Source: Streptomyces sp. NBC_01803 | GTDB taxonomy: Bacteria > Actinomycetota > Actinomycetes > Streptomycetales > Streptomycetaceae | Direction of reading: 5' to 3' | Assembly (NCBI RefSeq): GCF_035917415.1 | Contig: NZ_CP109073.1 | Span: 4,076,501 to 4,140,500, forward strand | Length of the DNA stretch: 64,000 nucleotides | Translations under genes and position numbers: made by a program | Shown: piece by piece, positions 2,413-23,191 of the stretch | Layout of the letters: every line of letters begins with the position of its first letter | Position numbering within the stretch: the stretch's first letter is position 1 | Notes under the pieces: generated by a model | Databases searched by the model: none | Told to the model about the DNA's origin: nothing | What the model saw: only the letters and a program-made list of their open reading frames with translations

Positions 2413-5202
2413 TCAGAGTTGTTCCTTGCGGGTGAGGTGGGTGAACGCCAGCCAGCCGGGCAGCACCGGCAGCCAGAAGGTCATCAGCCGGAACAGCAGC
2501 ACCGCGCCCAGCGCCGCGCTGGACGGCACGCCGAACGCGGACAGGCCCGTGCTCAGCGTCAGCTCGATCGCGCCGATGCCGCCCGGGGTGGGCACCGCCG
2601 AGCCCAGCGCGTTCCCCGCGAGGAAGACGACGGCGATCGTCGCGTAGTTCATCTCCTCGCCGAACGCGCGCAGCGAGGCGTCCAGGCACATCACGAACGC
2701 CAGCGTCATCAGCAGCATGCCGCCGATGCCGCTGAGCAGCTTCCTCGGCTCCTGCACCACGTCCAGCATGCGCGGCACGACCCCCGCGAAGAGGGTGCGG
2801 ACCCGCTCCGAGATGGCCTTGCGCAGGCTGGGCACGGCGGTGACGATCAGCACCCCGACCGCGACCGTCAGCAGGCCCGCGATGACCGTGCGGGACGGGG
2901 AGAGCGTGGGCGTGTGCTCGGTGCCGGTGAGGTAGCCGAACGACAGCAGCAGGATGATGTGGCTGCCGAGCCCGAAGAGCTGGGAGGCGCCGACGCTGGC
3001 GACCGCGTGGCCGGGGCGAAGGCCCTGGCGCTGCAGATAGCGGGCGTTGAGCGCGACGCCGCCGATCGCGGCGGGCGCGACCAGCTTGACGAACGAGCCG
3101 GCGAGCTGCGCCAGCACCGTGCGCGGATAGCTGACCTTCTCCGGCACGAAGCCCAGCAGGCTCAGCGCCGCCGCGAAGTACGTCAGCGCGGAGAAGCCGG
3201 CCGCGATGAGCACCCAGCCCCAGTTCGCGTCGTCCCAGACCCGCTGGAACTCCGGGTTGATCAGCTGCGAGGTCAGGATGTACGCGGCGAACGCGGCGGC
3301 GACCAGGCTGAGCAGCGTGCGTGGCTTGATGCGCTCGATGCGCGCCGGCTCTATGGCCGCCTGCGGCCTGATCAGCAGCACCTGCCGGCGGATGAGCGAG
3401 AGCAGGTCGGGCTCCCTGGCGTTCTCCAGGGCGACCTCCATGACCTGCTTCTCCGCCTGCTTGGCCGCCTTCATCGTCCTGCGGTCCGCGTTCTCCGGCA
3501 GGCTGCCGCGCGCCTCGCGGTACGCGTCCGTCGCGTCCAGCACCGCCTGCCGCTCGCGTTGGGCGCGCTCCCGGGCGAGCTGGCGCAGCGCGGCCCTGGT
3601 GTGGCGGCTGAGCGCGATCGGCTGGAGCAGCGGCAGGCTGTCGGCCACTGTGTCCGGGCCCAGCACGGACACGGCCGCCGCCGCCGCCCGCTCGGCTCCG
3701 GCCCGCAGGCCGAAGGTGGTCAGGAGCTGCGCCACGTCCATCCGCAGCGACAGATCCCCGGCCGCGATCTCGCCGCCGCGCAGATCGGTGAGGAAGACGG
3801 TGCCGGCCCGGTCCACCAGCAGCGAACTGCCGTCCAGCCGGCGGTGCGCGATCCGGCGCGACTGGAGGGCGGCCACCTGGCCCCAGGCGGCCTCCATCAG
3901 CTCGTCGGTGATCTCGTCGTCCGGCAGGGTGTCCAGGCGCCGGCCGCCGGTGTGCTCGTAGACCAGCATCACCGCGTCCGGGCCCAACTCGGAGGTGGCG
4001 ATCAGCTTGGGCGCGTTCGCCCCGGCGGCGATGGCCGCGTACGCCAGCAGCGCCTCCTGCTCCAGCGCCTGGCGCAGCGAGGGCAGGCTCCGGCGGTGGG
4101 CGACGCCGCGCAGCGCCAGGCGGCGCCAGGCGCGGTAGAAGAAGCCGCGCGCCTGCTGCGCGCGGTCCACCACGGTCACGTCCAGGGGCGGCCCGGACTC
4201 CAGCGTGACCAGGTAGCGGCGGGTCGGCTCGGCGGCCCGCTCGTTGCGGGCCTGGCGCTCGGCCTCGTCCGGCTCCTCGGCGCGCAGCGCGCTCGCCGGG
4301 CGGAAGCCGACGCGGCGCAGCCCGGCGAGGAGCTGCTGCCCGGTGGGGCGGACGTTGGGCGAGCCGACCGCGTACAGCGTGCCGTAGGCGATGGTCCAGC
4401 CGATGAGGACGGTGACGACGATCGAGAACGGGGTGGTGTAGCCGGCCACCAGCACCGCCAGCGCGTCCAGCAGCAGCACCGACCACATCGCCAGCCGCCA
4501 GCGCGGCCGGTGGGTCATGCCGACGGCCGTGGCGTAGGCGATGACCGGCGCCAGATATCCGTGCACCGGCTCCGTCAGGCCGCCGCCCGGGGCGTCCCTG
4601 GTCAGCGCGTTCTGCACGGACTCCGGGGACATGCGGGCGACCCAGAGGCTGAAGGAGAGCGAGACACCGTGCGCCAGCACCGCCGCGAGCACGCCGTCGG
4701 CGATCCGCAGCCCGTCCCGTTTCACCAGCCGCTGGATGGCGAACGCCACCGGGACGACCAGGACGGCGACGCTGGAGGCGAAGCCGGCGAAGCTGATCAG
4801 GAGCGACGGGGCCTGCCCCGCGCCCTTGTCGACGTCCTGCTCGATGCCCTCGGTGGTGCCGATCGCGAAGGTGGCCAGGGCGAGCACGATGCCGATGCCG
4901 GCCAGCCCCAGCAGGACGCGCAGCAGATCGGCGGGGCGGTGGACGCGGGCGGCGAGGATCGGCTCGTCCACGGCCAGGCGCCCGGACCGGTGCGCGAGCT
5001 CGGCCGGATGGTCGGCGGGGGCCAGTGCCGGTGCGGATGCCGACGCGGGTTCCCCTGCCATCGCCGTCTCGGTCGATGCTGACGACGCCACCGGTGGCCC
5101 GTCGTCCGCCGGCCGTGCCCCTGGCGCGGCCGGACCGCTGTCCGGCCCGCTCTCCGGACGGTCCTCCGGCCGCTGTGTCCGCTCTTCTTCGCCCCGTATC
5201 AC
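2413..5202 (-). CDS. Kinase-like / lysylphosphatidylglycerol synthetase-type flippase membrane protein
   Basis: The product is about 929 residues from a GTG at 5202, which has AGGGAA seven bases upstream; in-frame alternatives exist at 5277 and at an internal ATG. Residues 1-90 are hydrophilic and Pro/Ala/Glu-rich. Six or so membrane helices follow (about 94-290). The middle, about 380-500, resembles an AarF/RIO-type kinase fold, with a catalytic-loop-like IAHRRLDGSSLLVDR near residue 446 and VFLTDLRGG in the place of DFG. The C-terminal third (about 600-929) is the multi-helix lysylphosphatidylglycerol synthase/flippase region, with the conserved VPTPGGIGAIE motif of the DUF2156-less MprF/AglD family. 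The aminoacyl-transfer domain of true MprF is absent, so lipid flipping or translocation is more likely than lysylation. It is divergent from the ATL gene. Family assignment is confident; substrate is unknown. Confidence 0.85.
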   Translation of the reverse strand: MIRGEEERTQRPEDRPESGPDSGPAAPGARPADDGPPVASSASTETAMAGEPASASAPALAPADHPAELAHRSGRLAVDEPILAARVHRPADLLRVLLGLAGIGIVLALATFAIGTTEGIEQDVDKGAGQAPSLLISFAGFASSVAVLVVPVAFAIQRLVKRDGLRIADGVLAAVLAHGVSLSFSLWVARMSPESVQNALTRDAPGGGLTEPVHGYLAPVIAYATAVGMTHRPRWRLAMWSVLLLDALAVLVAGYTTPFSIVVTVLIGWTIAYGTLYAVGSPNVRPTGQQLLAGLRRVGFRPASALRAEEPDEAERQARNERAAEPTRRYLVTLESGPPLDVTVVDRAQQARGFFYRAWRRLALRGVAHRRSLPSLRQALEQEALLAYAAIAAGANAPKLIATSELGPDAVMLVYEHTGGRRLDTLPDDEITDELMEAAWGQVAALQSRRIAHRRLDGSSLLVDRAGTVFLTDLRGGEIAAGDLSLRMDVAQLLTTFGLRAGAERAAAAAVSVLGPDTVADSLPLLQPIALSRHTRAALRQLARERAQRERQAVLDATDAYREARGSLPENADRRTMKAAKQAEKQVMEVALENAREPDLLSLIRRQVLLIRPQAAIEPARIERIKPRTLLSLVAAAFAAYILTSQLINPEFQRVWDDANWGWVLIAAGFSALTYFAAALSLLGFVPEKVSYPRTVLAQLAGSFVKLVAPAAIGGVALNARYLQRQGLRPGHAVASVGASQLFGLGSHIILLLSFGYLTGTEHTPTLSPSRTVIAGLLTVAVGVLIVTAVPSLRKAISERVRTLFAGVVPRMLDVVQEPRKLLSGIGGMLLMTLAFVMCLDASLRAFGEEMNYATIAVVFLAGNALGSAVPTPGGIGAIELTLSTGLSAFGVPSSAALGAVLLFRLMTFWLPVLPGWLAFTHLTRKEQL

Positions 5203-5327
5203 CGGCCGCTTCCCTGCGCTTCTCCTCGTGCTGGAACTGCCGACCAGCTCCCCCCGACGGTGCGACGATAGTGGCATGTGAGCCATCCGCCGAGGGCGCG
5301 TCCGTGACATACGGCACCATGGGCGCC

Positions 5328-5657
5328 ATGGCAGGACCCACCCACAGCCTTCCCGAATACGCCGATCGAGTTCTGACGGCAGCCGAAGTGATTCCGCCCG
5401 GACGGGTGTTGACGTACGGGGACATCGCCCGGCGCCTCGGCGAGGGTGGCCCCCGGCAGGTGGGCCGGGTGATGGCGCTGTACGGCGCGGCCGTGCCGTG
5501 GTGGCGCGTGGTGCGCGCCGACGGGCGGCTGCTGCCGGGGCACGAGCGACGCGCGCTGGAGCGGTACCGCGCCGAGGGCACCCCGCTGCGCGACGGGACG
5601 GCCCCCGGCGACATGCCCCGCCTCGACCTCCGGCGCGCCCGGTGGGACGGCGGCTGA
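5328..5657 (+). CDS. Alkyltransferase-like protein (ATL), MGMT fold without catalytic cysteine
   Basis: This small protein (109 residues from ATG 5328; alternative starts at 5319 and GTG 5304) has the DNA-binding domain of O6-alkylguanine-DNA alkyltransferases. The usual PCHR active site is replaced by PWWRVVR at about residues 50-56, so the acceptor Cys is Trp. This is the defining feature of ATL proteins, which bind O6-alkylguanine and flag it for nucleotide excision repair without repairing it. RVLTYGDIARRLGEGGPRQV and the C-terminal LLPGHERRALERYRAEG match the family. It lies just upstream of adnA in a region full of DNA repair genes, and diverges from the flippase-like gene. Confidence 0.88.
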   Translation: MAGPTHSLPEYADRVLTAAEVIPPGRVLTYGDIARRLGEGGPRQVGRVMALYGAAVPWWRVVRADGRLLPGHERRALERYRAEGTPLRDGTAPGDMPRLDLRRARWDGG

Positions 5658-5800: not shown

Positions 5801-8800
5801 ATGCACGTGAACCTCTCCGTCCCGTCCACTGACCGGCGGCCCGCCCCGGGAGCGTACCGACTGGTGCGTGCCCCGCTCACCGACGCGCGCACTGTGGCAA
5901 TGGACGCAAGCCAGCGCGCCGTGGTTGACCACCCGGGCGGACCGTTGCTCGTGCTCGCGGGGCCGGGCACCGGCAAGACCACCACGCTGGTGGAGGCGTG
6001 CGCCCGCCGGGTGGCGGACGGCGCAGACCCCGACCGGACGCTGGTGCTCACCTTCAGCCGCAAGGCCGCCGCCGAGCTGCGGGACCGGCTGACGGCCCGG
6101 CTCGGGGGGCTGTCGCCGCAGGCGACCACGTTCCACTCCTTCGCCTACGGCTTCCTCCGCGCCCACCAGGACCGGGAGTTGTTCGCCGAGCCGCTGCGGC
6201 TGCTGTCCGGGCCCGAGCAGGATCTCTACCTGCGGGAGCTGCTGGCCGGCCACCGCGAGCTGGAGCGCGAGGGACGGGGCCTGCGCTGGCCCGAGGAGCT
6301 GCGCGCCTGCCTGACCACCCGCGGCTTCGCCGACGAGCTGCGGGCCGTTCTCGCGCGCAGCCGCGAACTGGGCCTGGAGCCGGGCACCCTGGCCGACTTC
6401 GCCCGCCGCACCGGGCGCGCGGACTGGGAGGCCGCCGCCCACTTCCTCGCCGAATACCTCGACGTCACCCGGGCGCAGGGCGTGCTCGACTACACCGAGC
6501 TGGTGCGCGGCGCGGCCCGGCTGGCGGCGGAGCCGGGGCCGGCCGCCGCCGTACGCGCCCGGTACGACGCGGTGTTCGTCGACGAGTACCAGGACACCGA
6601 CCCGGCGCAGGTCGCGCTGCTGCGGGCGCTGGCCGGGGACGGCCGCGACCTGATGGTCTTCGGCGATCCCGACCAGTCCATCTACGCCTTCCGCGGCGCC
6701 GACGTGGGCGGCATCCTCGGCTTCCCCGACGCCTTCCGCACGGCGGCCGGTGACCCGGCGCCCGTCGCCGTCCTCACCACCAACAGGCGCAGCGGCGCCG
6801 CGCTGCTGGCCGCCACCCGGCTGCTCACCCAGCGCATGCCGCTGGCCCGGCTGCCCGCCGACGCGGTCCGCCGCCACCGGGCGCTCGCGGCCGAGGCCGA
6901 GGGCGGCCGGGTCGAGGTGTTCACCTACCCCACCCCGGGCGCCGAGCTGGAGAACATCGCGGACCTGCTGCGCCGGGCCCACCTGGAGGACGGCGTGCCC
7001 TGGGGCGAGATGGCGGTCCTGGTGCGCGCCGGCAGCCTGTTCATCCCCGGCGTGCGCCGGGCGCTCACCTCGGCCGGGGTCCCGCTGGAGGTGGACGGCG
7101 ACGACCTGCCGCTGCGCCGGGAGCCGGCCGTCGCGCCGCTGCTGACGGCCCTGCGCGTGGTGGCCGAGCCGGGCGGCGTGCCGGACCCGGAGACCGCGGT
7201 CCGGCTGCTCACCTCGCCGCTGGGCGGCATGGACGCCGCCGACCTGCGCCGCCTCGGGCGCGCCCTGCGGAACGAGGAGCGCGCGGCGGGCGTCACCGTG
7301 CCCCGCCCCTCGGACGAGCTGATCGCCTCGGCGCTGGCCGAGCCCGAGCGGCTGGTCACGCACGACCCGGTGTACGCGGCGGGCGCGCAGCGGCTCGGGC
7401 TGCTGCTGCGCAAGGCGCGCGAGCTGCTGACCGGCGGCGGCAGCGCCGAGGAGGCGCTGTGGCTGCTGTGGGACGGCACCACGTGGCCGCGGCGGCTGGA
7501 GCGCGCCGCCCGGCGCGGCGGCGCGGCGGGCCGCAACGCCGACCGCGACCTGGACGCGATCTGCGCGCTGTTCGAGGTGGCGGCGCGGGCGGAGGAACGC
7601 ATCGGCGGGCGGGGAGCGCTGATCTTCCTGGAGGAGCTGGGAGCGCACGACATCGCGGCCGACACGCTCGCCGCGCGCGCCGTGCGCCCCGACGCCGTAC
7701 GGCTGATGACCGCCCACCGCGCCAAGGGCCTGGAGTGGTCCCTGGTGGTGGTCGCCGGCGTGCAGGAGGGGCTCTGGCCCGACCTGCGCCGCCGGGGCTC
7801 GCTGCTGGAGGCGGACCGCATCGGCCGCGACGGGCTGGCCGAGCCGCTGAGCCCGGCCGCGCTGCTGACCGAGGAGCGGCGGCTGTTCTACGTCGCCGCC
7901 ACCCGCGCGAAGCGGCGGCTGGTCGTCACGGCGGTGAGCGGCGCGGACGACGGCGACCAGCCGTCGCGGTTCCTGCGCGAACTCGGCGTGGAGCCGGTGG
8001 CGGTGAGCAGCCGGCCGCGCCGGCCGCTCGCGCTGGCGGCGCTGATCGCCGAGCTGCGCGCCACCACGGTCGACCCGGGCGCCTCGCCCGCGCTGCGCCG
8101 GGCCGCGGCCCGGCGGCTGGCCGACCTCGCCGCGCTGCGCGACGACGACGGCTACGCGCTGGCGCCCGCCGCCCACCCCGAACGCTGGTGGGGACTGCGC
8201 GAGCCGACCCGTTCCGACGCGCCGCTGCGCGACCCCGGGGCGCCGGTCATTCTGTCCGGCAGCGCGCTGGACCAGCTCGTCAACACCTGCTCGCTCCAGT
8301 GGTTCCTCGGCCGTGAGGTGCACGCCGACGCGCCGGCCACGACGGCGCAGGGCTTCGGCAACGTGCTGCACGTGCTCGCCGACGAGGTCGCCTCCGGCAC
8401 CGCCCCGGCCGACCTGGCGGTGCTGATGGAGCGCCTGGACACAGTCTGGGACTCGCTCGCCTTCGAGGCGCCCTGGCAGTCGCGGAGGGAACAGGCGGAG
8501 GCGCGGGCGGCGCTGGAGCGATTCCTGCGCTGGCACGTGCTCCAGCAGGCGAACGGCCGCGAACCGGCCGCCAGCGAGGCCGAGTTCGACATCACCCTGG
8601 AGGCCGGCGAGCACCAGGTCCGCATCCGCGGCGTGCTGGACCGTGTCGAGCGGGACGCCGAGGGCCGGGCGTACGTCGTGGACTTCAAGACGGGCCGGAC
8701 CAAGCCGACGCGCGAGGAGGTGGAACGGCATCCGCAGCTCGCCGTCTACCAGCTCGCCGTCCGGCACGGCGAGGCCGCCGCCGAGGTGGCGGGCGCGGAG

Positions 8801-9040
8801 CTGGTTCACCTGCGTCAGGGCGCGCTCAAACGGGACGGCGGCGACGTGCTCCCCACCGTCCAGCGCCAGGAGCCGCTGACCCGCGAACCGGGCGACGACT
8901 GGGTCGGCGACCTGCTGGCCCGGGCGGCGGGCCGCGTCCTGGACGAACGCTTCACGGCCTCCACCGGCCGGCACTGCGGCTCCTGCGCCTTCCACGGCAC
9001 CTGCAGCGCCCGCCCGGAGGGCCGTCACGCGGTGGACTGA
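5801..9040 (+). CDS. adnA: AdnA: Fe-S helicase-nuclease subunit of the AdnAB end-resection complex
   Basis: This 1079-residue UvrD-family motor fused to a RecB-type nuclease is the first subunit of AdnAB, which resects double-strand breaks in actinobacteria. Walker A is GPGTGKTT (54-61), motif II VDEYQDTDP is near 260, QSIYAFRGAD follows, and motif V-like MTAHRAKGLEW is near 637. The C-terminal nuclease has GVLDRVE and VVDFKTG near 960, then QLAVYQLAV. Four cysteines (830, 1059, 1062, 1068; C-x2-C-x5-C at the end) form the [4Fe-4S] staple of AddB/AdnA-type nucleases. Gene order adnA-adnB-nudC-mycoredoxin-uvrD2 matches Mycobacterium Rv3202c-Rv3198c, which supports naming this one AdnA. A possible -10 (TAGCGT) lies at 5767-5772. 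The stop is followed within 8 bp by an 11-bp tandem repeat array. Confidence 0.92.
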   Translation: MHVNLSVPSTDRRPAPGAYRLVRAPLTDARTVAMDASQRAVVDHPGGPLLVLAGPGTGKTTTLVEACARRVADGADPDRTLVLTFSRKAAAELRDRLTARLGGLSPQATTFHSFAYGFLRAHQDRELFAEPLRLLSGPEQDLYLRELLAGHRELEREGRGLRWPEELRACLTTRGFADELRAVLARSRELGLEPGTLADFARRTGRADWEAAAHFLAEYLDVTRAQGVLDYTELVRGAARLAAEPGPAAAVRARYDAVFVDEYQDTDPAQVALLRALAGDGRDLMVFGDPDQSIYAFRGADVGGILGFPDAFRTAAGDPAPVAVLTTNRRSGAALLAATRLLTQRMPLARLPADAVRRHRALAAEAEGGRVEVFTYPTPGAELENIADLLRRAHLEDGVPWGEMAVLVRAGSLFIPGVRRALTSAGVPLEVDGDDLPLRREPAVAPLLTALRVVAEPGGVPDPETAVRLLTSPLGGMDAADLRRLGRALRNEERAAGVTVPRPSDELIASALAEPERLVTHDPVYAAGAQRLGLLLRKARELLTGGGSAEEALWLLWDGTTWPRRLERAARRGGAAGRNADRDLDAICALFEVAARAEERIGGRGALIFLEELGAHDIAADTLAARAVRPDAVRLMTAHRAKGLEWSLVVVAGVQEGLWPDLRRRGSLLEADRIGRDGLAEPLSPAALLTEERRLFYVAATRAKRRLVVTAVSGADDGDQPSRFLRELGVEPVAVSSRPRRPLALAALIAELRATTVDPGASPALRRAAARRLADLAALRDDDGYALAPAAHPERWWGLREPTRSDAPLRDPGAPVILSGSALDQLVNTCSLQWFLGREVHADAPATTAQGFGNVLHVLADEVASGTAPADLAVLMERLDTVWDSLAFEAPWQSRREQAEARAALERFLRWHVLQQANGREPAASEAEFDITLEAGEHQVRIRGVLDRVERDAEGRAYVVDFKTGRTKPTREEVERHPQLAVYQLAVRHGEAAAEVAGAELVHLRQGALKRDGGDVLPTVQRQEPLTREPGDDWVGDLLARAAGRVLDERFTASTGRHCGSCAFHGTCSARPEGRHAVD

Positions 9041-9047
9041 CCTCTGA

Positions 9048-9393
9048 CCGTCGCGCCCGCCGTCGCGCGGCCGTCGCGCCGCTGACCCGGCGCTGTCCCG
9101 GCGCCGTCGCGCCGCCGTCGCGCGGCCGTCGCGCTGCCGTCGCGCGCCCGCCGTCCCGGCGCTGTCCCGGCGCCGTCGCGCTGCCGTCGCGCGGCCGTCG
9201 CGCGGCCGTCCCACCGCTGTCCTGCCGCCGTCCCGGCGCTGTCCCGGCGCCGTCGCGCTGCCGTCGCGCTGCCGTCGCGCCCGCCGTCCCACCGCTGTCC
9301 TGCCGCCGTCCCGGCGCCGTCGCGCGGCCGTCGCGCCCGCCGTCCCACCGCTGTCCTGCCGCCGTCCCGGTGCCGTCGCGCGGCCGACCCGCC
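9048..9393. repeat. 11-bp tandem repeat array (minisatellite, about 31 units)
   Basis: Starting 8 bp after the adnA stop, the sequence can be cut almost entirely into 11-mers of the form CYGTCnCnnYG: for example CCGTCGCGCGG at 9060, CCGTCGCGCTG at 9126, CCGTCCCGGCG at 9151 and CTGTCCCGGCG at 9162. A few units have 12 or 14 bp through an added C or GCC (9048, 9137, 9272, 9328). A three-unit composite, CCGTCCCACCG then CTGTCCTGCCG then CCGTCCCGG(C/T)G, recurs at 9206, 9284 and 9340, so the array has grown by duplication of larger blocks. There are no unique spacers and no palindromic repeat, so it is not a CRISPR. The last recognisable unit is degenerate and ends near 9393. Confidence 0.93.
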
Positions 9394-9856
9394 CGAGCCG
9401 AGTGCCGATCCGGCATCCCGGGGCGTGCGACGCCGTGGTGACACCGCGCCTTCCGGCGGCCCCCGGGTCGGTCCGGTGCCGGGCACGTGGGAGCGGCCCC
9501 CGGACCTCGGGGGACACGGGCGTGCCCTCGGACACGATGCGGCCGGCGGGCGCGGGCCATGGGCGCCGTCGCGTCGTGGTCGCGGAGGGCGGGGAGCCCG
9601 GACGTAAGGGCGTAAGGCGTAAGGACGGTGAGGCCCGAAGAGGGGCCCGGGCGCGGAGGAGAGCGCGGCCGGCCGCCGCTCGATCGGTCGGGTGACGCGC
9701 CCGCCGGGGGCCCGGGGACGGCCCGGCCACGAGGCTGGCCCGCCGACGCCGTCACGCCGACGCCGTCACGCCGACGCCGGCGCACCCGTGTGCCGCGACA
9801 GGGCCGTTCGGCGTGGGGCGCGCGGGCGGTGGGGCGTGGGTGTCCGACCCGGCGGC

Positions 9857-9862
9857 TAGTCT
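9857..9862 (+). promoter_or_regulatory. Probable -10 element of adnB (leaderless)
   Basis: TAGTCT lies 7 bp before the GTG at 9870. Spacing like this between a TAnnnT hexamer and a start codon is characteristic of leaderless transcripts in actinobacteria, and no Shine-Dalgarno sequence precedes the GTG. It supports 9870 as the true adnB start. Confidence 0.5.
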
Positions 9863-9869
9863 CACTCGG

Positions 9870-12800
9870 GTGCCCGCTCGACTCAGCCGTCCCGAGGAGC
9901 TCAGGGAGCTGCTCGGGATCCCGTTCACTCCGGAGCAGTTGGCGTGTATCACCGCGCCGCCCGCTCCGCAGGCGATCGTGGCCGGGGCCGGGTCGGGGAA
10001 GACCACCGTCATGGCGGCCCGCGTCGTGTGGCTCACCGGCACCGGGCAGGCCGCGCCGGAGCAGGTGCTCGGGCTCACGTTCACCAACAAGGCCGCGGGC
10101 GAGCTTTCGGAGCGCGTGCGCAAGGCCCTGGCCCGGGCGGGGGTCGACGGGTCCGAGGACGGCGAGCCGCAGATCTCCACCTACCACTCCTTCGCCGGGC
10201 GGCTGCTCGCCGAGCACGGGCTGCGGCTCGGCGTCGAGCCCGCCGCGCGGCTGCTGGCCGACGCCGGGCGCTTCCAGCTCGCCGCCGAGGTGCTGCGGGC
10301 CGCGCCCGCCGACTTCGAGCCGCCGAGCGCCTCGTTCACCACGCTCGTCACCGATCTCATCGCGCTCGACGGCGAGCTGGCCGAGCACTTGGTCACCCCC
10401 GAGCGGCTGCGCGCTTTCGACGCCGGACTCCTGGCCGAGCTGGAGCACGCCGCCCTGACCAACGCCGACCTCCGCCTCATCCCCGAAGCCGCCCGCGGCC
10501 GGGGCCAGTTGCTCACGCTGGTCGAGGAGTACCGGGCCCGCAAGCGCGGCCGGGACCTGGTCGACTTCGGCGACCAGATGTCCCTGGCCGCCACCCTGGC
10601 CCGCGACATCCCCGAGGTCGGCCGGGCGCTGCGCGAGCAGTTCACCGTCGTCCTGCTCGACGAGTACCAGGACACCTCCGTGGCCCAGCGGGTTCTGCTC
10701 GCCGGGCTGTTCGGCGGCGGCACCGGGCACGCCGTGACCGCCGTGGGCGACCCCTGCCAGGCCATCTACGGTTGGCGCGGCGCCTCGGTGGCCAACCTGG
10801 ACGACTTCCCCGAGCACTTCCCGCACCGCGACGGCACCCCGGCCCGGCGTGACAGCCTCAGCGAGAACCGCCGCAGCGGCGGCCGGCTCCTCGCCCTGGC
10901 CAACGAACTGGCCGCCCCGCTCCGCGAGCGCCACCCGGCCGTCGTGCCGCTCCGCCCCGCCGAGGGCGCCGAGCTGGCCGGGCGGGTGCGCTGCGCCCTG
11001 CTGCCCACCCACGCCGAGGAGCTGGAGTGGCTGGCCGACTCCGTCGCCCACCTCGTCGGCACCGGCACCCCGCCCGGCGAGATCGCCGTCCTGTGTCGCA
11101 CGGCGGGCGACTTCCCCGAGATCCAGCGCGCGCTGGTCGCCCGTGACGTGCCGGTCGAGGTCGTCGGCCTGTCCGGGCTGCTGCATCTGCCGGAGGTGGC
11201 CGACCTCGTCGCCGTCTGCCAGGTGCTGGCCGACCCCACGGCCAACGCCGCCCTCGTCCGGCTGCTCGCCGGACCGCGCTGGCGGATCGGCCCGCGCGAT
11301 CTGGCCCTGCTCGGCCGCCGCGCCCGCCTGCTGGTGCGCCGCGCCGATCCGGCCGAGGGCACGGAGCCGCTGGCCGCCGCCGTCGAGGGCACCGACCCGG
11401 CCGAGATCACCTCGCTGGCGGACGCGCTGGACACGTTCGTCGAGGGCGGCGGGGGCGAGCCGGACGACGGCCTGCCGTTCTCGGCGGCGGCGCGGGTGCG
11501 GTTCGCGCACCTGGCCGCCGAGATCCGCGAGCTGCGGCGTGCGCTCGGCGATCCGCTGATGGACGTGCTGCACCGGGTGCTGGCCGCCACCGGCCTGGAG
11601 GTGGAGCTGTCCGCGTCGCCGCGGGCGCTGGCCGCCAGGCGGCGCGAGACGCTGAGCGCGTTCCTCGACGTGGCCGCCGGCTTCGCGGCCGGGCGGGCCG
11701 GCACGGCCGTGGACGGTGAGGCGACGCTGCCGGCGTTCCTCGCGTTCCTGCGCGCCGCCGCTCAGTACGACCGGGGCCTGGACGGCTCGCTGCCCGGCGG
11801 CGAGAACACGGTGAAGGTGCTGACCGCCCACAAGGCCAAGGGGCTGGAGTGGGACGTGGTGGTGGTGCCGGGGCTGTGCGCAGACTCCTTCCCCGCCAAG
11901 GGCTCCCGCGACTCCTGGCTGCGGCACGCCAGGGCGCTGCCGCGGTCGCTGCGCGGCGACGCCGGGACGCTGCCCGGCATCGAGGAGTGGACGGCGGCGG
12001 CGTACAAGGAGCACGTCGCGGCCGTGACCGGCCACCAGCGGCTGGAGGAGCTGCGGCTCGGCTATGTGACGTTCACCCGGCCGCGTTCGCTGCTGTTCGG
12101 CTCCGGGCACTGGTGGGGGCCGAGTCAGAAGAAGCGGCGCGGCCCGTCGCCGTTCCTGGAGGCGCTGCGCGCCCACTGCGAGGCCGACCCGGCGCACGGC
12201 GAGGTCGAGCGGTGGGCCGAGGCGCCGGGCGACGACGAGGAGAACCCGGCGCTGGCCGGCGCGCGGGAGCACTCCTGGCCGCTGCCGCTGGACGAGGTGG
12301 CGCTGGCCCGCCGCCGGGAGGCCGCGGCCGCGGTGCTGGCGCGGCTGCGGGGCGTCGTGCCGTCGCCCCGGGAGGAGGCCGTGGACGCCGCGGCCGTCGC
12401 ACAGGATGTCGCACAGGCCGTCGCACAGGACGTCGCGGATGTCGGGGATCTCACACTCACCCCGGAGGAGCAGCGGGCGGTGGCCTCCTGGGACCGGGAC
12501 CTGACCGCGCTGGCGGGCGAGCTGCGGCAGGCCAGGGCGGCGGTCCGGGATGTCGAGCTGCCACTCTCGCTGTCCGCCTCGCAGGTGCAGCGCCTCGCCG
12601 CCGATCCGGAGGGTTTCGCCCGCGAGCTGGCCCGCCCCATGCCGCGCCCCCCGCAGCCGGCCGCGCGGCGCGGAACGCGCTTCCACGCCTGGGTCGAGTC
12701 GCGGTTCGAGGCGCTGCCGCTGCCCATGCTGGGTCTGGACGAGCTGCCGGGCGGCGATCCGAAGGAGGACGCCGAGATCCGCGACGAGCGTGAACTCGCC

Positions 12801-13172
12801 GCGTTGAAGGAGGCGTTCAGCCGCACGCCGTACGCGACACGGACGCCGTACCGGGTGGAGGCGCCGTTCCGCGTCCAGCTCGCCGGGCGCGTGATCCGGG
12901 GCCGCATCGACGCCGTGTACCGGACGGCCACCGGTGGCTTCGACATCATCGACTGGAAGACCGCCCGCCGCCAGGACGCCGATCCGCTCCAGCTGGCGAT
13001 CTACCGGGTGGCGTGGGCGGAGCGGCACGGCCTGCCGCTGTCGGCGGTGAGCGCGGCGTTCCTCTACGTCCGCAGCGGCGAGCTCGTCCGCCCCACGGTG
13101 CTGCCCGGACGGCGCGGTCTGGAGCGTCTGCTGCTGGGGGAGGACTCCTGGGAGCCGAACGACCCCGGTTAG
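9870..13172 (+). CDS. adnB: AdnB: helicase-nuclease subunit of the AdnAB complex
   Basis: This is the second AdnAB subunit, about 1100 residues from GTG 9870 (an upstream in-frame ATG at 9813 would add 19 poorly conserved residues). Walker A is GAGSGKTT (39-46), motif II LLDEYQDTSV is near 262, QAIYGWRGASVANLDDFP follows, and LTAHKAKGLEWDVVVVPG is near 650. The C-terminal RecB-type nuclease shows RGRIDAVYR, GFDIIDWKTARR near 1027 and QLAIYRVAWAE. Unlike AdnA, it has no C-terminal cysteine cluster. Residues 843-860 are an Ala/Val/Gln/Asp repeat encoded by a 15-bp direct repeat. nudC starts 10 bp after the stop, so the two are probably co-transcribed. AdnB is the main translocating motor in mycobacterial AdnAB. 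Confidence 0.92.
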   Translation: MPARLSRPEELRELLGIPFTPEQLACITAPPAPQAIVAGAGSGKTTVMAARVVWLTGTGQAAPEQVLGLTFTNKAAGELSERVRKALARAGVDGSEDGEPQISTYHSFAGRLLAEHGLRLGVEPAARLLADAGRFQLAAEVLRAAPADFEPPSASFTTLVTDLIALDGELAEHLVTPERLRAFDAGLLAELEHAALTNADLRLIPEAARGRGQLLTLVEEYRARKRGRDLVDFGDQMSLAATLARDIPEVGRALREQFTVVLLDEYQDTSVAQRVLLAGLFGGGTGHAVTAVGDPCQAIYGWRGASVANLDDFPEHFPHRDGTPARRDSLSENRRSGGRLLALANELAAPLRERHPAVVPLRPAEGAELAGRVRCALLPTHAEELEWLADSVAHLVGTGTPPGEIAVLCRTAGDFPEIQRALVARDVPVEVVGLSGLLHLPEVADLVAVCQVLADPTANAALVRLLAGPRWRIGPRDLALLGRRARLLVRRADPAEGTEPLAAAVEGTDPAEITSLADALDTFVEGGGGEPDDGLPFSAAARVRFAHLAAEIRELRRALGDPLMDVLHRVLAATGLEVELSASPRALAARRRETLSAFLDVAAGFAAGRAGTAVDGEATLPAFLAFLRAAAQYDRGLDGSLPGGENTVKVLTAHKAKGLEWDVVVVPGLCADSFPAKGSRDSWLRHARALPRSLRGDAGTLPGIEEWTAAAYKEHVAAVTGHQRLEELRLGYVTFTRPRSLLFGSGHWWGPSQKKRRGPSPFLEALRAHCEADPAHGEVERWAEAPGDDEENPALAGAREHSWPLPLDEVALARRREAAAAVLARLRGVVPSPREEAVDAAAVAQDVAQAVAQDVADVGDLTLTPEEQRAVASWDRDLTALAGELRQARAAVRDVELPLSLSASQVQRLAADPEGFARELARPMPRPPQPAARRGTRFHAWVESRFEALPLPMLGLDELPGGDPKEDAEIRDERELAALKEAFSRTPYATRTPYRVEAPFRVQLAGRVIRGRIDAVYRTATGGFDIIDWKTARRQDADPLQLAIYRVAWAERHGLPLSAVSAAFLYVRSGELVRPTVLPGRRGLERLLLGEDSWEPNDPG
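12396..12442 (+). repeat. 15-bp in-frame direct repeat inside adnB
   Basis: GTCGCACAGGaygTC-type units recur three times and encode a run of VAQ(D/A) residues at about 843-857 of AdnB. The repeat keeps the reading frame and lies in the linker between the motor and nuclease domains, so it is likely a tolerated length polymorphism. Confidence 0.7.
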
Positions 13173-21469: not shown

Positions 21470-21565
21470 GCAACCGCTGGACATCCGGCCGTGCCTGTCG
21501 GTGCGAGCGGTTAGTCTGGCCCCGCCGAATGTTTGTCTTATCGGATGGGGGACGGACGTTTACGT

Positions 21566-23191
21566 ATGGTGACGCACTTCCAGCGGGGCCAGAAAACCAG
21601 GCTCAGCGAACTGACGCTGGGTACCGATCTGTATGTGGGTGTGCAGATCTCGGGCCCCGGATTGACCTTCGACATCAGTTGCTTCGGTCTTGACGCGGCC
21701 GAACGGCTCTCCGACGACCGTTACTTCATCTTCTACAACCAGCCGAAGTCGCCCGAGGAAGCCGTCCAGCTCCTCGGCGGGCAGGCCGGGGACACCGAGT
21801 CGTTCCGCGTGACCCTGGACCGGCTGCCCGATTCGATCAACCGGCTCGCCTTCACCGCGACGATCGACGGCGACGGCACCATGGCCCAGGCGGCCCCCGG
21901 CCATCTGCGCATCGTCGCGGGTGGTGAGGAGGTCGCGCGCTATGCCTTCGACGGCTCGGCCTTCACCACCGAACGCGCCGTCATGCTCGGCGACTTCTAC
22001 CGCAAGGACGGCTGGCGGTTCGCCGCGGTCGGGCAGGGCTTCGACGGCGGCCTCGCCGCGCTGCTGAAGCACTTCGGCGGCGAGGTGGAGGAAGAGGAGT
22101 CGGCTCCGGCGCCCGGGCCCGCCGCCACTCCCGGCTTCGCGCCCCCGCCGGGCGGCTCGGCCGGGCCGCCGGGCTTCGCGCCTCCGCCCGGCGGTGCCGC
22201 GCCTCCGCCGGCCCCGGCGCCTCCGCCGGCCCCCGCGCCCGCCCCGGCGCCTCCGCCGGCTCCCGCGCCGGCCGTGCCGCAGCCGGGCTTCCAGCAGCCC
22301 GGTTTCCCGCAGCCCGCGCCGACGCAGCCCTTCGCGGCCCCCGTGCCCGCTCCGGCCCCCGGCGGCTTCGCCGCCCCGCCGGCGCCGGCTCCCGCGCCGT
22401 ACGGGCAACCCCCGGCTCCGCAGCAGCCGTTCCCGCCGCAGCAGCCGTTCGCGCCCGGCGCCCCCGTGCCCGTGCCCGCCGCGCCGCAGGCGCCGGGCAT
22501 CCCGCAGCAGGCCGGGGCGGGCGCGGCCGGCGGCATGAACGCCGTGCTCAACAAGTACCGGGGCTCCGCCGACCGGCAGCGCTGGAGCCTGCAGAACCCG
22601 CAGCTCGTCCGCGCCGACCTCGGCCTCGACGGCCGCCCGGTCCTCGCCCGCCAAGGCAGCATGGTGCTGTACCAGGGCGACGTGGACTTCGGCTTCAAGG
22701 GCGCCGGCATCATGAACCGGGTCAAGTCCAAGCTGACCGGCGAGGGCCTGCCCTCCCTGATGCGCTGCACCGGCAACGGCCAGGTCTACCTGGCGGAGCA
22801 GGCCACCCGGCTGCACCCCGTCGAGCTCCAGGGCGACGCGCTGTGCGTGTCCGCGCAGCGTGTGCTCGCCTTCGACGAGTCCCTCGAATTCGACGTGCGT
22901 CGCATCGAGGGCCACGGCCTGCCGGGCGGGGTGCTGTTCGCCATGGAGTTCCGCGGCCACGGCACCCTCGTGCTCACCACCAAGGGCGAGCCGCTCGTCC
23001 TCCCGGTCACCCCCATGACCTTCGCCGATGCCAACGCCGTGATCGCCTGGTCCGCCGCGGCCCAGGTGCTCGTCGCCAGCCAGGTGCGGGTGCGCCGGCA
23101 CGCCTATCCGGGCCACACCGGCGAGACGACCCAGCTCCAGTTCCGCGGCGCCCCGGGGAATTTCGCCATCGTCCAGCCCTACGAGATCTGA
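21566..23191 (+). CDS. TerD-domain protein fused to an AIM24-type domain through a proline-rich linker
   Basis: The 541-residue protein (ATG 21566; an in-frame ATG at 21542 is possible) has three parts. Residues about 1-180 are a TerD/CABP domain with GTDLYVGVQISGPGLTFDIS and DDRYFIFYNQPKSPEE, where acidic residues usually bind Ca2+. Residues 185-320 are a linker dominated by Pro, Ala, Gly and Gln with repeated PAPAP and QPF elements. Residues 325-541 are an AIM24-like beta-sandwich (ARQGSMVLYQGDVDFGFKGA, LMRCTGNGQVYLAEQATRLH). It heads a three-gene run of AIM24 proteins with 10-15 bp gaps. TerD proteins are linked to tellurite and surface stress; the function of bacterial AIM24 proteins is unknown. 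Confidence 0.88.
   Translation: MVTHFQRGQKTRLSELTLGTDLYVGVQISGPGLTFDISCFGLDAAERLSDDRYFIFYNQPKSPEEAVQLLGGQAGDTESFRVTLDRLPDSINRLAFTATIDGDGTMAQAAPGHLRIVAGGEEVARYAFDGSAFTTERAVMLGDFYRKDGWRFAAVGQGFDGGLAALLKHFGGEVEEEESAPAPGPAATPGFAPPPGGSAGPPGFAPPPGGAAPPPAPAPPPAPAPAPAPPPAPAPAVPQPGFQQPGFPQPAPTQPFAAPVPAPAPGGFAAPPAPAPAPYGQPPAPQQPFPPQQPFAPGAPVPVPAAPQAPGIPQQAGAGAAGGMNAVLNKYRGSADRQRWSLQNPQLVRADLGLDGRPVLARQGSMVLYQGDVDFGFKGAGIMNRVKSKLTGEGLPSLMRCTGNGQVYLAEQATRLHPVELQGDALCVSAQRVLAFDESLEFDVRRIEGHGLPGGVLFAMEFRGHGTLVLTTKGEPLVLPVTPMTFADANAVIAWSAAAQVLVASQVRVRRHAYPGHTGETTQLQFRGAPGNFAIVQPYEI

Follow-up and report, generated by a model that had tools for sequence, protein, structure and literature searches.

A lineage-specific, most likely neutral 11-bp minisatellite in the enlarged adnA–adnB spacer of a Streptomyces strain, and a damage-type promoter sequence in front of adnB

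Three kinds of described element can be set beside the locus analysed here. Intergenic minisatellites and VNTR loci, as presented in PMC6749651, resemble our array in being non-coding head-to-tail repeats with indel units and block duplications that occur in one lineage and are missing from its sister; they differ in that VNTR loci are defined by copy-number variation between strains, whereas our array is known from one genome and has unusually many copies for the part of that genome we sampled. RecA-NDp/PafBC promoters (described in PMC8151990, PMC8223512 and PMC5087735) resemble the sequence in front of adnB, which has the same TGTC–N12–TASNNT spacing and a repair gene downstream, but the likeness concerns the flank of the array and not the array itself, holds at the level of sequence, and involves a TGTCCG box in our case. 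For mycobacteria, PMC8151990 gives the motif as TGTCGG–N10–TA–N3–T, with TGTCAG and TGTCAC as variants for M. tuberculosis (TGTCCG is not among the three forms given there), and reports that AdnAB is raised by PafBC. Such promoters are said to reach other actinobacteria (PMC8223512), and in Streptomyces one precedes SCO6735 (PMC5087735). Finally, the sites of SARP/AfsR regulators (PMC10936776) and of PhoP (the PHO box) share the 11-bp repeat spacing, but consist of a few repeats near a −10 element, whereas our array has 31 units, lies far from the promoter sequence and is without the known cores.

By the window we mean the whole 64,000-nucleotide stretch of Streptomyces sp. NBC_01803 that was analysed (genome of 5.85 Mb in a single contig; the closest named relative by AdnB is Streptomyces radicis, with 83% identity). 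It carries adnA at 5801–9040 and adnB at 9870–13172, both on the forward strand. The Streptomyces adnAB locus was reportedly dealt with in a study from 2014. Pfam places a UvrD helicase domain and a PD-(D/E)XK nuclease domain in each product, the nuclease domain of AdnB (E 1.7e-12) being weaker than that of AdnA, and two adjacent subunits which each combine a UvrD-type motor with such a nuclease are what is expected of an AdnAB helicase–nuclease. These domains back the first-pass annotation, made from the letters alone, which had described a minisatellite wedged between the two AdnAB subunits. We placed the start of adnB at the GTG at 9870, which is kept among relatives and lies 7 nt past the −10 element in a leaderless layout, and set aside the longest-ORF start at 9813. 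Upstream of adnA, an ORF at 5025–5657 has an O6-methylguanine methyltransferase DNA-binding domain.

The spacer between the two genes is 829 bp long, gene-free and 82% GC, and opens with an 11-bp minisatellite at 9048–9393 (forward strand) which was recognised by unit anchoring, Tandem Repeats Finder and lag-11 identity. Delimiting units by the anchor C[CT]G[TA]C gives 31 of them, beginning 8 bases after the adnA stop at 9040, just as had been claimed; 26 are 11 bp long and, besides the three 12-bp units and one 14-bp unit that agree with the indels noted earlier, the last unit measures 10 bp. Tandem Repeats Finder reports the array both at 9048–9386 with a period of 11 (30.3 copies) and at 9048–9395 with a period of 56 (6.2 copies). 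The lag-11 identity is 0.74 compared to 0.396 (sd 0.024, maximum 0.48) in 2000 mononucleotide shuffles, so that this is a head-to-tail repeat of a short unit well beyond chance, and no other 346-bp stretch of the window is as strongly periodic, the runner-up reaching 0.54 over lags of 2 to 59. Twelve distinct unit forms occur in the array, and in the 26 units of 11 bp columns 1, 3, 5 and 11 are invariant and column 4 varies once, which could reflect constraint or merely a recent spread.

The array also contains larger duplications of 56 and 77/78 bp, with identities of 94–100%. The youngest-looking of these is a 56-bp block at 9284–9339 which is followed directly by its second copy at 9340–9395 (94.6% identity over 56 bp, both on the forward strand), and 55-bp stretches starting at 9151 and 9228, at a spacing of 77, are 94.5% identical. 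The three-unit composite previously pointed out at 9206, 9284 and 9340 is present as a 33-bp sequence, the copy at 9284 being 100% and that at 9340 97% identical to the one at 9206. This pattern suggests repeated block duplication together with small slippage events, with slippage or unequal exchange as the probable mechanism. A coding repeat was rejected, as a period of 11 is not divisible by three and the 10-, 12- and 14-bp units break the frame; several frames are open across the spacer, which is expected at 82% GC. The earlier suggestion that a unit close to one helical turn would phase a protein or bend on one face of the DNA does not carry over to the array as a whole, since on a 10.5-bp helix the 31 units accumulate a drift of about 15 bp, and one-face phasing would be kept over no more than about ten units, barring a local helix with close to 11 bp per turn. 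The copy number might be an assembly error, given that such repeats are error-prone and that one assembly was examined, but the genome is assembled as one contig and the 12 distinct unit forms provide anchors for reads, and we regard such an error as very improbable.

We then compared the spacer with that of relatives, measuring from the adnA stop to the adnB start in the window, L017–L087 and L142–L170 (98 entries with 95 distinct start regions; L075, L082 and L153 were left out because the end of adnA was not found). The closest sister, G137, in which the ends of AdnA and AdnB are 94% and 92% identical to those in the window, has a spacer of 56 bp, and the spacers of the near relatives G136, G361, G202, G053, G172, G287 and S. 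radicis are 102, 69, 56, 81, 68, 80 and 100 bp long, respectively. The array is absent from adnA–adnB in all eight of these genomes, the outcome which had been named in advance as speaking against it, and its absence from the sister and seven other near relatives means that it is not a conserved element. Small repeats of other kinds were seen in some of these spacers, with 2.2 copies of an 11–12-bp repeat of different sequence in G287 (score 45) and a 14-bp repeat immediately behind the adnA stop in S. radicis. Outside Streptomyces and Streptacidiphilus, adnA and adnB overlap or are at most 20 bp apart in 15 of the 16 start regions, and 88 bp apart in L041 (these starts were extrapolated from the alignment).

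Spacers of at least 820 bp were found in eleven entries besides the window. Eight of them were read for ORFs (the remaining three are L157, L158 and L165), and each of the eight has a putative lipoprotein ORF between adnA and adnB (L027, L031, L033, L034, L047, L048, L049 and L052), with probably two such ORFs in each of the two longest, L047 and L048. The one lipoprotein examined had no Pfam match. That the window spacer holds a relic of such a gene was set aside, as none of the four longest frames in its six-frame translation is an ORF of this kind.

The array accounts for 346 of the 773 extra bp of the window spacer. For the spacer DNA behind it (447 bp, 9394–9840, forward strand), a comparison with eight genomes gave no long match other than the sequence itself; seven of the eight have partial matches, none longer than 130 bp, and the sister G137 has none, and we did not retain the idea that the spacer had been copied from elsewhere. 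It includes a second small tandem repeat at 9741–9779 (forward strand) of 2.8 copies of a 14-bp unit with 100% matches according to Tandem Repeats Finder.

In order to place the array among repeats of its kind, we ran Tandem Repeats Finder on 60 distinct gene-free spacers, the window included, after trimming the last 36 bp (apart from L041, all of them have the adnB promoter sequence described below). Arrays with a score of at least 50 were found in 9/60 spacers, whereas 200 dinucleotide shuffles gave 0.67 such spacers on average and never more than 3, and the units in the other eight array-bearing spacers are 8 to 39 bp long and unrelated. The weaker of these arrays score 59–109 and, as the shuffles reached a score of 113 once, they are not individually beyond chance, though their number is. 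None of the other spacers in this set has a repeat that comes near the window array in size. Of the 147 arrays with a score of at least 50 in 400 kb sampled from the window genome, 32 have periods not divisible by three (seven of these score at least 100), and an array of 30 copies was not encountered; repeats of this kind are common there, while the copy number of this one is not.

The possibility that the array was scattered at random through the genome had also been raised as an argument against it, and this was not what we found: a three-unit pattern searched in the window genome with up to two mismatches gave 20 forward and no reverse matches, all 20 at adnA–adnB, compared to three for the reversed pattern, and on this basis a dispersed repeat family was rejected for this genome. 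Thirteen other places matched by BLAST had, at the matched site, repeats with a period divisible by three or GC-rich DNA without an array (a further one, L010, is the array itself, shifted). A large 15-bp array of 36 copies with similar CCGTCG-type units lies at L002:1081–1640 in the same genome, and its period suggests a coding repeat. Across the genus, 42/392 genomes had a three-unit match with at most one mismatch compared to 25/392 for the reversed control (counted by eye). A search for the same 11-mer array between adnA and adnB of other strains had been proposed, and none of the 20 genus loci fetched (of about 3 kb or less each) holds adnA or adnB; the longest 11-bp array among them has 9.7 copies (L190, genome G155). 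Among the eight near relatives, short three-unit matches lie elsewhere in the genomes of two, G172 and G287.

The more useful outcome of our analysis lies at the other end of the spacer, where a damage-type promoter sequence precedes adnB at the same position across Streptomyces and was not found at adnA. In the window this PafBC/RecA-NDp-type sequence is at 9841–9862 (forward strand), with a TGTCCG box at 9841–9846, N10 and a TAGTCT −10 element at 9857–9862, and so combines the TGTC box, fixed spacing and TAnnnT of the class, while the TGTCRG form of the box is not present; the site escapes the strict pattern and is found once C is allowed. Upstream of adnB we found TGTC–N12–TASNNT followed by 5–8 nt (7 in 51/79) to the start codon. 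The −10 element and start occur in 79 of the 95 distinct start regions, with TGTC exactly 16 nt before the −10 in 77/79 and TGTC[AG]G in 72/79. These 79 regions belong to genomes of the window's genus, to records of Streptomyces and Streptacidiphilus, and to one record labelled Streptosporangium nondiastaticum (L058), and the 16 regions without this −10 and start are from seven genomes of other families, one Kitasatospora, four Corynebacterium and four MAGs.

As the −10 class was picked after the sequences had been seen, controls matter. None of 39 adnA starts has TGTCnG–N10–TAnnnT–N5..9–NTG within 150 bp (nine of this set belong to neither Streptomyces nor Streptacidiphilus, and several of the starts were extrapolated), and the strict TGTC[AG]G form is found in 0/29 within 1.5 kb upstream of adnA. 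We conclude that adnB, unlike adnA, has its own leaderless damage-type promoter sequence across Streptomyces, which is predicted to act as a promoter. We found no account of an adnB promoter in Streptomyces in open-licence full texts, and claim no priority.

A functional role for the array has to be weighed against this background. The 11-bp units might be bound by a regulator of the OmpR/SARP type or by a nucleoid protein, the array then serving as a bend or a decoy, with the spacing matching that of SARP direct repeats at 11 or 22 bp (PMC10936776). However, SARP repeats lie 8 bp from the −10 according to the same source and the end of our array is 447 bp from the adnB box, the array contains no PHO-box units and no TCGAG cores (0 of each), and it is not kept in relatives. 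It thus has neither the known core nor the closeness to a −10 element of SARP/PhoP operator arrays; an operator was rejected because the known cores are missing, and a protein-binding array of any of these kinds seems highly unlikely. A structured RNA was also rejected, as each of 100 shuffles gives a more stable fold than the RNA of the array does (z +2.59). A consensus scan of the array for terminators and sigma-70 promoters found none, a weak test as none are expected in shuffles of such GC-rich DNA.

Alternatively, the GC-rich untranslated spacer could serve as an expression insulator that shields adnB from transcription running on from adnA, with Rho-dependent termination as one conceivable means, leaving AdnB in this species to be made mainly from its own damage promoter. 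The length, GC content and lack of genes of the spacer are in keeping with this, as is the conserved promoter sequence before adnB with none at adnA (0/39), but the array makes up less than half of the extra DNA, relatives with spacers of 30–100 bp keep the same promoter, and the TGTCCG box departs from the common TGTC[AG]G form, which argues against a stronger dependence on this promoter; we therefore judge an insulator to be unlikely. It is quite unlikely, too, that the two subunits of this obligate helicase–nuclease pair are uncoupled throughout Streptomyces by a conserved PafBC-type promoter that raises AdnB alone, with the 829-bp spacer completing the uncoupling here and an AdnA to AdnB ratio that is set by damage and could drift with the length of the array.

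We consider it probable that the array is a lineage-specific and neutral minisatellite in an unconstrained spacer. In favour of this are its absence in relatives, the unrelated repeats in other spacers, the block duplications, the restriction to one locus, the lack of RNA stability and the commonness of the repeat kind, as well as a downstream promoter sequence that is kept while the spacer upstream of it changes; against it are its size, the largest among the repeats of the 60 spacers, and the lack of another 30-copy array in the 400-kb sample. The first-pass annotation had left it undecided whether the array alters adnB expression, forms a structure or is a neutral product of slippage, and the evidence favours the last of these and does not support the functional readings. 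It had also found the array striking next to a helicase–nuclease that resects breaks, yet nothing beyond position links it to resection by AdnAB. The array is ordinary though large, and should not be taken as part of the AdnAB machine.

A neutral origin could have come about as follows. In Streptomyces, the tight adnA–adnB junction of most of the other actinobacteria examined is opened and adnB has its own leaderless damage-type promoter sequence in front of it. The DNA from the adnA stop to this promoter would be free to change. In the lineage of the window the spacer may then have grown from the order of 50–100 bp to 829 bp (the direction of change is our reading of the comparison), in part through expansion of the 11-bp repeat by slippage, which would have left the 10-, 12- and 14-bp units, and further through duplication of the multi-unit blocks of 56 and 77/78 bp.

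The promoter sequence of adnB does not stand alone. In the window genome, TTGTCRGTG–N8–TASNNT with at most one mismatch has 32 sites compared to one for the reversed pattern, and these include sites upstream of recA, uvrB, uvrC, xseA, radA and recD2 (30 of the 32 were fetched and inspected, and one lies at window position 21496). Ten genes chosen by eye as repair genes were run against NCBIfam, while other motif sites precede other kinds of gene or no clear gene; recA, thyX, xseA, uvrB, radA, recD2 and uvrC pass their cut-offs, the RarA-like ATPase fails, and the two without a match at 1e-40 are an O6-methylguanine methyltransferase and a PD-(D/E)XK nuclease according to Pfam. A candidate regulator is also present, as a WYL gene matches the PafBC structure 6sj9 (E 7.1e-46) and a second WYL domain follows about 1 kb on. 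Exact motif sites occur in 40 of 41 genomes (the window's own, 24 of the genus, 15 of the order and one of the class), with four reversed-control sites in all of them together. According to a 2022 study of Streptomyces venezuelae, a first search pointed to the PafBC motif not being conserved there, and it is still to be shown whether Streptomyces has a damage response independent of LexA/RecA (PMC9380542); our motif counts make the question of such a response directly testable.

Several further observations were made along the way. One genome of the same order, G033, has 76 exact motif sites, most of them near-identical (TTGTCGGTGGYGGCRTCTAGCAT), compared to 2 to 37 in the genus and order genomes having any, and the sites in G033 are those of a dispersed promoter-bearing repeat family. 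The motif at 21496–21517 in the window precedes a gene at 21533–23002 with TerD and AIM24 domains, and a PemK/MazF-like gene at L252:1531–1977 has a damage-type motif directly upstream, 7 nt from its start. Outside the window, a 379-bp stretch at L125:2577–2955 (G000:C1:4055076–4055454) is 100% identical to the part of adnB at 12640–13018. This copy is inverted, lies about 34 kb from its source and sits inside a 491-bp insertion where the sister G137 has 8 bp; for the remaining 106 bp of the insertion the genome offers no second match. The sequence has the look of a recent event in which a break was repaired by templated insertion. Near this copy in the same genome is a distant relative of the spacer lipoprotein (28% identity, E 9e-17).
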